Origin: Rhizobium sp. Q54 | GTDB lineage: Bacteria; Pseudomonadota; Alphaproteobacteria; Rhizobiales; Xanthobacteraceae | Length of the DNA: 64,000 bases | Direction: 5' to 3' | Assembly: GCA_945861265.1 (NCBI GenBank) | Contig: CAMAUC010000010.1 | Span: forward strand, 1 to 64,000 | Part shown: piece after piece, positions 57,392 to 59,848 of the stretch | Layout: each line of letters begins with the position of its first letter | How positions within the stretch are numbered: the stretch's first letter is position 1 | Made by a program: the position numbers and the translations under genes | The notes under the pieces: model-generated | The model's database searches: none | Told to the model about the DNA's origin: nothing | What the model saw: only the letters and a program-made list of their open reading frames with translations

Positions 57392-57410
57392 GCGCACAAA
57401 CTTTGTGCGC
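57392..57410. terminator. Perfect dyad after the LysR gene
   Basis: GCGCACAAA-c-TTTGTGCGC, a near-continuous 19-bp palindrome, followed by GTTTGCCCTTT. It can be a terminator of the LysR gene or an operator of the downstream receptor gene. The same CGCACAAA arm occurs in a dyad at 29513-29533, where the arms are in the opposite order. Confidence 0.5.
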
Positions 57411-57511
57411 GTTTGCCCTTTATTAATGCGGTGCTTTCGCAACTGCGAAAGGTTTTGGAAACCTAAATCAGGCGAATTTGACGCAAGATATTTTCCTTCA
57501 CCGAGTCCGAA

Positions 57512-59848
57512 ATGCCCGCCGCAAACAGCCATCGTATTCCGCGTCCAGCGTTGTGGATTGCGGTGCCGGTTTTCCTTGTCTGCGCGGTTGCCATTGTGGC
57601 GTTTGAATTCTGGCAGTCGATGCCGCTTGCTGTGGCGCTTGCCGTCGCCGGGGCACTGGCGGTCGGTTATTTCGCCGAGAGCCGGCTTGCCGGCATTATC
57701 GCGTCGATCAGCAAAATTGCCGGCGGCGACCGATACACCGATCTGCCCATCTTCGTCGGCGACGGCGCCATCCGGCATTTCAGCGACACCGCCGGCAAGA
57801 TCCGCGACGCGCTGATCGAGGCCGATACTGTTGCGGTCGATCAGGGCCGACGCGAAACCGAAGCCCGGCTGCATCATGCCGGGCGCCATTTCTTCACAGG
57901 CAATTTCCGCAGCGCCGTCGACGACGTGGTCAACGCCTTTACCAATGCCGGCGAGCGCATCCGTGGCACCGCCGCCGAACTGGCGCAAACCAACCGGCAG
58001 ATGGCGCAGCAGGTTATGACCTCCGCCGACAGGGCGGCGCAGGCCGCCGAGGATGTTGCCGATGTCGCCGCCGCGGCGCGCGACGTCCAGGCGCTGGCGG
58101 TCGATTCCGGACGCCAGGTCGACGAATCCCGTGCTGCGACCGGCCGCACGGTTACCGAATTGGCGCGTGCCGACGAGACCATGCGCAATCTCGGTGAAGC
58201 CGCGGGCCGCATCGAACAGGTTATCAAGCTGATCCACGCGATCGCCGGACAGACCTCGCTGCTGGCGCTCAACGCCACGATTGAGGCCGCGCGGGCCGGC
58301 GAGTCGGGCCGCGGTTTCGCGGTGGTGGCGGCGGAAGTGAAGGAACTGTCGCGGCGCACCGAGGCCGCGACCAAGGAAGTCTCAGCGCAGATCCACGGCA
58401 TCCAGGACGCGGTCAAGGAAGCCGCGGAGGCGATTCTCGCGGTCGACAAGAGCGTCGCGGCGATGAGCCACGTCAATGAAAACGTGACGCGGCTGATGGA
58501 GCAGCAGATCGTCAAGCTGGAGCGCATCGGCAACGAGGCGAACAAGGTGGCGTTCACCGTCAGCGAAGCATTGCCAGGGATTCGCGGGGTCGTGACCGAT
58601 GTCGCGCAGGCCGGCGACGCCGTGCTGGAGACGGCGGACGACCTCATCGCGCGTGCGCAGTCCCTGACCTCGTCGGTCAGCCGCTATTTCGCCGATCTCG
58701 ATCACGGCTCGATCAAGGTCGGCATACTGCATTCGTTGTCGGGCACGCTGACCGGCAGTGAACGGCCTTTGCAGCAGATTCTCGTCATGCTGATCGAGAA
58801 GCTGAACAAGGCCGGCGGCCTGCTCGGCCGTCCGGTCGAGGCGGCGATCATGGATCCGCGTTCCGATACCGGCGCCTACGCGGCGCAGGCCGAAGGCTTG
58901 TTGCGCGATCACAAGGTCGCTGCGATTTTCGGTTGCTGGACATCGGCTTCGCGCAAGCAGGTGCTGCCTTTGCTGGAGAAGTACGACGGCTTGCTGTTCT
59001 ATCCGAGCCAGTACGAGGGCGAGGAGCAATCGCCGCATGTGATCTATACCGGCGCGACGCCGCAGCAACAGGCGCTGCCGGCAGTCGATCATCTGCTCGC
59101 TCTCGGCCGGCGGCGGTTTTTCCTGCTCGGCACCGATTACGTCTATCCGCGGACCACCAATGCCATCATTCGCAACTATCTGATCAGCCGCGGCGTCGGC
59201 GCCGATGCGGTGGACGAGCTATACGTACCGTTCGGCGAAACGGCCTTTGCCGACACCGTGCAGCGCATCCGCAAATTTGCCGGCCGCGATGGCGCCATCA
59301 TCGCAACGCTCAGCGGCGACTCGAACGTGCATTTCTTCCGCGAACGCGCCCGCCAGGGTCTCGACGCCGATATCCTGCCGGTGATGAGTCTGTCGCTCGG
59401 CGAAGCCGAATTGCCGGCCTTGGCGGAGCGCAAGCTCATCGGCCATATGGTGGCGTGGAATTACCTGCAAAGTCTCGACACGCCGGAGAACCAGGCTTTC
59501 ATCGCCGAGTGGCGCGACTTCACTGGCGATGCCAATGCGATCACCAACGATCCGATGGAAGCGAGCTGGATAGGTTTCCAGCTTTGGGCGCAGAGCGTCG
59601 CGGCCGCCGGCACCACCGATCCGCAGGCCGTGCGCCGCGCGCTTGCCGGCCGCAGTATTCGCGCGCCGTCCGGCTTCGATGTCCGGCTCGACCCCGAAAA
59701 CCAGCATCTGCACAAACCGTCGGTCATCGGCCGCATGGACGCGCACAATGCGATTTGGCCGGTGCAGATCAGCAAGGGCCTTATCGCGCCGGCGCCATGG
59801 AGCCGTTGGCTGGCGAAAGACGGCGTGCCGCTGAAGCGGGCCAGCTAA
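57512..59848 (+). CDS. Chemoreceptor signalling domain fused to UrtA-like binding domain
   Basis: A 778-aa protein. Two hydrophobic helices (about 13-34 and 36-57) with almost no loop between them are followed by a HAMP-like helix region, an MCP signalling coiled coil (tip [20 protein letters not shown] at about 249-268), and from about 400 a type I periplasmic-binding domain of the urea/amide (UrtA/AmiC/FmdD) class: IKVGILHSLSGTLTGSE, IFGCWTSASRKQVLPLLEKYDGLLFY, QYEGEEQSP, YVYPRTTNAI and NDPMEASWIGFQLW. Since no signal peptide or membrane helix precedes it, the binding domain should be cytoplasmic. Role inferred: sensing a small amide such as urea inside the cell and signalling to CheA/CheW. 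Confidence 0.85.
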   Translation: MPAANSHRIPRPALWIAVPVFLVCAVAIVAFEFWQSMPLAVALAVAGALAVGYFAESRLAGIIASISKIAGGDRYTDLPIFVGDGAIRHFSDTAGKIRDALIEADTVAVDQGRRETEARLHHAGRHFFTGNFRSAVDDVVNAFTNAGERIRGTAAELAQTNRQMAQQVMTSADRAAQAAEDVADVAAAARDVQALAVDSGRQVDESRAATGRTVTELARADETMRNLGEAAGRIEQVIKLIHAIAGQTSLLALNATIEAARAGESGRGFAVVAAEVKELSRRTEAATKEVSAQIHGIQDAVKEAAEAILAVDKSVAAMSHVNENVTRLMEQQIVKLERIGNEANKVAFTVSEALPGIRGVVTDVAQAGDAVLETADDLIARAQSLTSSVSRYFADLDHGSIKVGILHSLSGTLTGSERPLQQILVMLIEKLNKAGGLLGRPVEAAIMDPRSDTGAYAAQAEGLLRDHKVAAIFGCWTSASRKQVLPLLEKYDGLLFYPSQYEGEEQSPHVIYTGATPQQQALPAVDHLLALGRRRFFLLGTDYVYPRTTNAIIRNYLISRGVGADAVDELYVPFGETAFADTVQRIRKFAGRDGAIIATLSGDSNVHFFRERARQGLDADILPVMSLSLGEAELPALAERKLIGHMVAWNYLQSLDTPENQAFIAEWRDFTGDANAITNDPMEASWIGFQLWAQSVAAAGTTDPQAVRRALAGRSIRAPSGFDVRLDPENQHLHKPSVIGRMDAHNAIWPVQISKGLIAPAPWSRWLAKDGVPLKRAS

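Follow-up and report, generated by a model that had tools for sequence, protein, structure and literature searches.

A stretch of 64,000 nucleotides of the genome of Rhizobium sp. Q54 (contig CAMAUC010000010.1, positions 1 to 64,000; hereafter the window) encodes a chemoreceptor in which a membrane hairpin and a methyl-accepting chemotaxis protein (MCP) signalling domain are followed, at the C-terminus, by a complete type I binding domain of the kind found in UrtA, the urea-binding protein. It is proposed, with a confidence a little better than even, that this protein would be a membrane-anchored chemoreceptor sensing cytosolic urea or a close analogue. An initial annotation, made from the letters of the sequence, had described the gene as a chemoreceptor of inverted domain order with an intracellular sensor; its overall interpretation is partly supported by the analysis reported here.

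Domain organisation of the fusion protein

The gene is a single open reading frame on the + strand (57512-59848) with an ATG start, 778 encoded residues and no internal stops. Its features, together with a conserved box upstream, are the following:

57512..59848, + strand: fusion gene (transmembrane hairpin, MCP signalling domain and C-terminal UrtA-like binding domain, 778 amino acids); a single open frame, with full-length stop-free copies in 18/36 same-genus genomes
57548..57604, + strand: predicted membrane helix 1, residues 13-31; Kyte-Doolittle peak 2.75
57620..57676, + strand: predicted membrane helix 2, residues 37-55, about five residues from helix 1; Kyte-Doolittle peak 1.98
57683..57841, + strand: degenerate HAMP-like segment, residues 58-110, assigned by eye and position, Pfam HAMP being absent in the window protein
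58136..58612, + strand: MCPsignal domain, residues 209-367; Pfam PF00015, E 1.7e-29
58256-58318, + strand: hairpin tip, about residues 249-269; many tip residues invariant across 19 fusions
58706..58711, + strand: fusion point between the end of the MCP bundle and the start of the binding domain, about residues 399-400; placed from tip-to-end distances of MCPs
58709..59809, + strand: UrtA-like type I binding domain, residues 400-766; Pfam PF13433, NCBIfam UrtA and PDB matches
59312..59314, + strand: Ser601, equivalent of the urea-contacting Asn246 of UrtA; hand-mapped via alignment to 8hic
57402..57424, + strand: upstream box, possible promoter or regulator site; from a 12-genome alignment

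Pfam assigns MCPsignal to residues 209-367 (E 1.7e-29), Peripla_BP_5 to residues 401-766 (E 3.2e-132) and Peripla_BP_6 to residues 400-743. The fusion put forward by the initial annotation is thereby confirmed, as is a complete type I binding domain starting at about residue 400, and the hairpin tip lies where it had been placed. The NCBIfam UrtA model covers residues 401-764 with 424.2 bits, below its cut-off of 492.75. In a sequence search against solved structures, the signalling part matches MCP structures, and the binding-protein matches, spanning about residues 398-766, comprise 8tg1 (4e-99), the UrtAs 7s6f, 7s6e and 8hic (about 1e-69) and AmiC (1pea/1qnl, 6e-51); the domain scores far better against the UrtAs than against AmiC. 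It is 43% identical to the UrtA of its own genome.

The two N-terminal membrane helices are nearly loopless, as had been noticed before: Kyte-Doolittle hydropathy leaves about five residues between them, and the canonical periplasmic ligand-binding domain between the first and second transmembrane helices is missing. The appended substrate-binding protein (SBP) domain is the sole sensor-type domain shown by Pfam in the window protein. A HAMP-like part, usual though not universal in MCPs, had also been proposed; even with the threshold relaxed to E 5, Pfam finds no HAMP in the window protein, and three of 19 fusions show it weakly (best E 0.007), so that the segment is at best a degenerate HAMP. 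At the junction of the two halves, neither a signal peptide nor a third membrane helix was found, the Kyte-Doolittle maximum being 0.9 over 19-residue segments starting at residues 371-420; this covers residues 390-405, where the initial annotation had named such an element as the observation that would overturn its reading. In the established topology of MCPs the signalling domain is cytoplasmic. Given this placement, an even number of helices and a junction lacking a signal peptide or third helix, the type I binding domain should also be located in the cytoplasm, as first suggested.

The other chemoreceptors of the genome indicate where the binding domain was added. There are 19 MCP matches, and the tip motif was located in 17 of them, fusion included. 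In four (L173, L174, L176 and L178) the protein ends 140-141 residues past the tip motif, and in the fusion the binding domain begins about 138 residues past it. The tails of the remaining MCPs measure 153-211 residues in nine cases, 237 in L172 and 409 in L177, and L170 stops at 96. Since the MCP-only matches of relatives also end mostly near query residues 395-400, the binding domain was added just where one kind of MCP naturally ends. Two chemoreceptors of the same genome, L172 (1105-2628, - strand) and L177 (577-2343, - strand), carry a C-terminal PilZ domain, and another, L179 (1384-3357, - strand), carries N-terminal FIST and FIST_C domains.

Distribution and conservation

Among 36 genomes of the same genus, the window's own included, 18 contain full-length stop-free copies, the 17 others being 74-90% identical to that of the window. 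In the remaining genomes, the copy of G009 has two stops, that of G002 is split in two frames, those of G018, G020 and G030 are partial, and 13 have none; the same search also covered 24 genomes from other families and found no fusion there. In the family search, full-length stop-free copies occur in 29/296 genomes, of which 14 belong to other genera (52-62% identity), and copies in G090, G206, G002 and G018 are partial. The order search yielded three of 397 genomes besides the window's own, all three in another family; the class search yielded three of 385 besides the window's own, and the phylum search one of 398, already among those three. Carriers further out than the family thus amount to six alphaproteobacterial genomes; one of them, G726, was counted with a stop because the match extends past the end of its frame. 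The genus, family, order, class and phylum samples overlap, and these counts hold for thresholds of E 1e-125 to 1e-130 with two or three candidates scored per genome, at which diverged fusions could be missed. Within the family the bit scores are bimodal, full-length fusions scoring at least 807 and SBP-only matches to stand-alone proteins at most 377. A scan of the contigs of named genomes listed at least 80 loci, 50 of which serve as comparison rows below, and the chemoreceptor tip motif occurs in no SBP frame among the 80 loci listed.

The ratio of nonsynonymous to synonymous substitution rates (dN/dS) was obtained by comparing the window gene with 11 of the 17 remaining full-length copies from the genus. 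It is 0.05-0.26 in the HAMP-like and MCP segment, 0.08-0.24 in the binding domain and 0.17-0.42 in the helices. Both halves of the fusion are under purifying selection. Homologues of the Rho, DUF255 or HemE neighbours of the window gene are retained in eight of 16 carrier stretches and are missing from the other eight; two of the eight conserved neighbourhoods (L129 and L130) come from another family of the order. These shared neighbours fit long vertical descent.

A frameshift, a misassembly or the existence of two separate products could create the appearance of a fusion, and the split copy of G002 and the stops in G009 are of the kind that such an artefact would leave. It is nevertheless extremely improbable in view of the full-length copies in 18/36 same-genus genomes, 29/296 family genomes and the six genomes further out, and of the purifying selection acting over both halves. 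As to the reading frame, a frameshift join of two genes, another refuting observation named initially, or a misassembly is refuted by the intact copies within the genus.

The aberrant copies L015 (G009) and L020 (G002), with stops or split, suggest loss or sequencing errors in single genomes. The most distant window-type fusion, L041 (1480-3639, + strand), shows no membrane helix above threshold in the part read and may be soluble; it has Gly at the site equivalent to Asn246 of UrtA.

Descent of the binding domain

In a tree of 39 rows (main tree; six loci, L180, L181, L182, L184, L186 and L187, are left out, having been missed by the motif used), the 13 window-type binding domains form one clade (support 100/99). 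This clade lies beside 17 mostly proteobacterial UrtAs (87/97 for the grouping), apart from a clade of binding proteins from formamidase operons; the tree is midpoint-rooted, so that a description as sister to UrtA depends on the root. The UrtA of the window's genome has the UrtAs of Methylobacterium and Bosea as its closest named rows. In a quick tree of 97 rows, from which nine own-genus fusions had been dropped beforehand, 27 fusions also form a single clade.

A second fusion in Azospirillum

A protein search of plasmid records returned an MCP domain together with a binding domain in four Azospirillum records, the match of one record being in two pieces; the Azospirillum-type fusion was seen only in these four. 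Two of the records, both megaplasmids, were read: L159 (5200-7848) and L160 (3203-5848) each hold a single frame, of 883 and 882 codons respectively, with an uncertain start codon. In both, MCPsignal precedes Peripla_BP_5, in the same order as in the window, and for L159 hydropathy places two helices close together at the N-terminus. Among 308 genomes of the class, a search at E 1e-120 gave 14 matches in 13 genomes, all to the SBP part only, and the Azospirillum-type fusion was not seen.

In A. brasilense MTCC4039 (L159), genes for a binding protein, two permeases, UrtD- and UrtE-type ATPases, the fusion and the formamidase FmdA follow on the same strand. Over its whole length the fusion shares 36% identity with the window protein. 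The binding domain has 70% identity to the binding protein of its own operon and the same pocket residues, and in the main tree it falls within the formamidase-operon clade (support 100/100). Its operon-like pocket and this placement indicate that the same layout arose independently. The Azospirillum fusion adjoins import and hydrolysis genes for what is presumed to be its ligand. The transporter parts of this operon are labelled urea-type by NCBIfam, and formamidase-operon binding proteins, like the Azospirillum fusion (505 bits), exceed the UrtA cut-off; this naming counts against a simple formamide reading of the Azospirillum fusion.

The ligand pocket and candidate ligands

Prochlorococcus UrtA binds urea with a dissociation constant of 141 nM, and Trp120, Ser122, Tyr141, Gln144, Glu146, Tyr190, Asn246 and Ser274 matter for its urea site, whereas Phe192 hardly does (PMC10392092). 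Gln144 forms hydrogen bonds with both urea nitrogens, and Asn246 is one of four residues whose mutation markedly decreased or abolished urea binding (PMC10392092). The hand-mapped equivalents in the window protein are W476, S478, Y497, Q500, E502, Y543, S601 and S628, with Y545 at the Phe192 position: seven of the eight urea-site residues are kept, the exception being Ser601 in place of Asn246. The sites of Trp120, Ser122, Tyr141, Gln144, Glu146 and Ser274 are identical in 36/36 fusions, and across 19 diverse fusions most of the pocket residues do not vary.

Other SBPs mostly have different residues at the Gln144 and Asn246 sites. Twelve more distant SBP rows have F, L, M or C at the former in 11 cases and Q in one (L153), and V in ten, G in one and L in one at the latter; only L134, which adjoins a formamidase, offers a clue to its ligand. 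The formamidase-operon type has F at the Gln144 site and V at the Asn246 site, and AmiC has P at the Gln144 site. The retention of Gln144 and of a polar residue at position 246 speaks for urea or a similar ligand carrying two NH2 groups, bound with altered affinity. The replacement of Asn by Ser may lower the affinity to suit a higher internal pool. Urea, the ligand suggested by the initial annotation, is therefore a plausible candidate as far as these residues and the grouping with UrtA go, with the change at Asn246 as the point that does not fit.

Several observations weigh against urea sensing. The Asn246 site is Ser in 32/36 fusions, Asn in three and Gly in one, versus Asn in 62/62 rows without a chemoreceptor domain, among which one protein is represented twice and L111 and L112 belong to histidine kinases instead of standing alone. 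Fifty of the 62 comparison rows were found with a motif that includes the Tyr141-Glu146 stretch, so that their agreement there is partly selected; position 246 lies outside the motif. At the Tyr190 site, Y is found in 30/36 fusions and T, S or F in the other six. Both the Ser at position 246 and the variation at Tyr190 suggest that the ligand may differ from urea. Gln alone is no urea marker, since the distant row L153 also has it, and the UrtA family name and cut-off are not urea-specific and do not distinguish urea from formamide, since formamidase-operon proteins pass. Urea genes next to the fusion were found neither in the window nor clearly among 19 flanking frames of other carriers searched with Pfam, several of these frames having no family and some perhaps being antisense. 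The association with urease described below is not corrected for shared descent. Finally, within the genus the fusion is associated neither with CheA nor with flagellin (Fisher 0.55 and 0.67), and flagellin matches are missing from carriers G018, G024 and G026 and a CheA match from G008.

These points raise the alternative of a receptor with the same layout and location whose ligand would be a small amide or nitrogen compound other than urea, such as formamide, acetamide, hydroxyurea or guanidine. The substitutions at the Asn246 and Tyr190 sites favour it, as do the score of the domain (424 against the NCBIfam cut-off of 492.75) and the Azospirillum fusion beside a formamidase, which suggests that amide versions exist. 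On the other hand, Gln144, Trp120 and Ser122 are invariant as in UrtA, the formamidase-operon type differs with its F and V, and the window-type domain groups with UrtA and not with the formamidase-operon clade; a different ligand is unlikely on balance. It is improbable that the binding domain no longer takes a small ligand and acts in docking or as a scaffold, perhaps for a partner protein. Such a role would be in line with partner-dependent SBP-like sensors such as AmiC-AmiR and NasS-NasT (PMC3795266), though both bind ligands, and with the lack of adjoining urea genes. Most pocket residues are nevertheless invariant across the 19 diverse fusions, and the binding domain is constrained as much as the MCP part.

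Proposed mode of action

The genome of the window has urtA-E on another contig (C86), as well as matches to urease alpha, two CheA proteins and flagellin. Within the genus, urease scores above cut-off in 24/24 fusion carriers versus 9/16 non-carriers (one-sided Fisher 6e-4), in a hand tally that counts broken and partial copies as carriers and excludes three further urease-scored genomes. Flagellin matches occur in 21/24 carriers and CheA matches in 23/24; since most genomes are drafts, the missing ones may be gaps.

From the observed architecture, conservation, domain descent, pocket residues and presence of urtABCDE, urease and CheA, we infer a cytoplasmic location, a ligand, a mode of coupling and a taxis output. 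The two N-terminal helices would serve as an anchor only, and the UrtA-derived domain at the end of the signalling bundle would close on cytosolic urea or a close urea-like diamide. The C-terminal helix of MCPs runs back towards the membrane. Closure would thus bear on the four-helix bundle at its membrane-proximal (adaptation) end and would shift CheA activity. What such a receptor would read out is the internal pool of urea, set by Urt import versus urease, instead of an outside gradient. This suggests that movement of the cell may be guided by a small nitrogen compound already taken up and not by one outside.

The receptor could instead feed a non-flagellar chemosensory pathway controlling pili, a second messenger or gene regulation, an output that would fit either kind of ligand. 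Two CheA genes in the genome, three carriers with no flagellin match and the lack of a fusion-flagellin association in the genus speak for it; the presence of flagellin in 21/24 carriers and in the window's genome, and of CheA in 23/24, speaks against it, and the misses in draft genomes may be gaps. This output seems rather unlikely. If flagellar taxis driven by cytosolic urea or its analogue is correct, the protein is a clear-cut and testable example of a cytosolic metabolite that guides chemotaxis by binding directly to the receptor, and work on UrtA has already made the ligand chemistry of its sensor domain understood.

More tentatively, and with somewhat less than even confidence, it seems possible that Alphaproteobacteria captured transporter binding domains onto the cytosolic end of chemoreceptors at least twice, from different SBP lineages; that these receptors steer by imported urea or formamide; and that the change from Asn to Ser retunes a nanomolar site to a higher internal pool. 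If they arose twice independently, in one case next to genes for a transporter and a formamidase, such fusions would provide a route to understanding how a flytrap domain joined to the distal end of the bundle controls the kinase.

Relation to known systems

The binding domain shares its family, by sequence, and seven of the eight urea-site residues with UrtA (8hic, 7s6e, 7s6f). It differs in lacking a signal peptide, in being fused to an MCP, in having Ser for Asn246, in scoring below the family cut-off and in not being adjacent to urtBCDE. Naming by best domain could mislabel such proteins as urea transporter parts.

AmiC is cytosolic, as implied by its RNA-binding partner. AmiC-AmiR and NasS-NasT are SBP-like sensors outside transport, and the likeness to them is that an unexported transporter-type binding domain senses a small nitrogen compound (PMC3795266, PMC5259723). 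AmiC and NasS differ in that they are separate proteins holding an antiterminator. In addition, the AmiC pocket has Y, P, V and T where the window domain has W, Q, S and S, so that four of nine compared sites differ. A survey of binding proteins likewise records that such domains also act as sensor domains (PMC9602780).

Azospirillum Tlp1 and Aer are chemoreceptors with a C-terminal PilZ domain (PMC6406031). They resemble the window protein in having an additional cytosolic sensor domain past the MCP bundle, a cytosolic place that we infer for the window protein; they differ in that PilZ binds cyclic di-GMP and, in Tlp1 and Aer, accompanies another sensor domain. The inverted order described by the initial annotation is accordingly real as a domain order, but the novelty of the layout was overstated. 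A survey of chemoreceptor profiles includes Peripla_BP_5 as a ligand-binding domain for a single cluster, which consists of one sequence (PMC8547431); in the portion of that source available, the entry stands in a table only, 'Peripla_BP' occurs once in the text, and position, topology and function are not discussed.

A screen of the open literature by title and beginning of the abstract, with subscription journals mostly outside its scope, found no paper describing the architecture among those listed. Signal-transduction databases probably hold such sequences. The separate precedents, C-terminal PilZ chemoreceptors and cytosolic SBP-like sensors, are known; their combination is a new form of a familiar type.

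A further sensor use of the UrtA-type domain was seen in two cyanobacterial loci, L111 (5947-8412, + strand) and L112 (5953-8511, + strand), where it forms the N-terminal part of a histidine kinase of the HAMP-HisKA-HATPase type; no signal peptide is obvious by eye. As in the window protein, an UrtA-type domain is joined to a signalling protein; the differences are its N-terminal position, the HAMP-HisKA-HATPase output and a pocket that keeps Asn.

Neighbouring genes and upstream region

The neighbours of the fusion gene in the window are a LysR regulator, Rho and a DUF255 protein, and urtBCDE are not adjacent. In genus g42, a Peripla_BP_6 protein with no MCP domain is encoded slightly downstream of a fusion (L127, 12274-13473, + strand), and in L138 a protein of the M24 peptidase/creatinase family flanks the fusion.

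The upstream box, about 90-110 nucleotides 5' of the start codon, is conserved in the 12-genome alignment. It is present in a single copy in the genome when up to three mismatches are allowed, so that no regulon can be deduced from it. The box overlaps an inverted repeat seen by eye and is possibly a promoter or regulator site.

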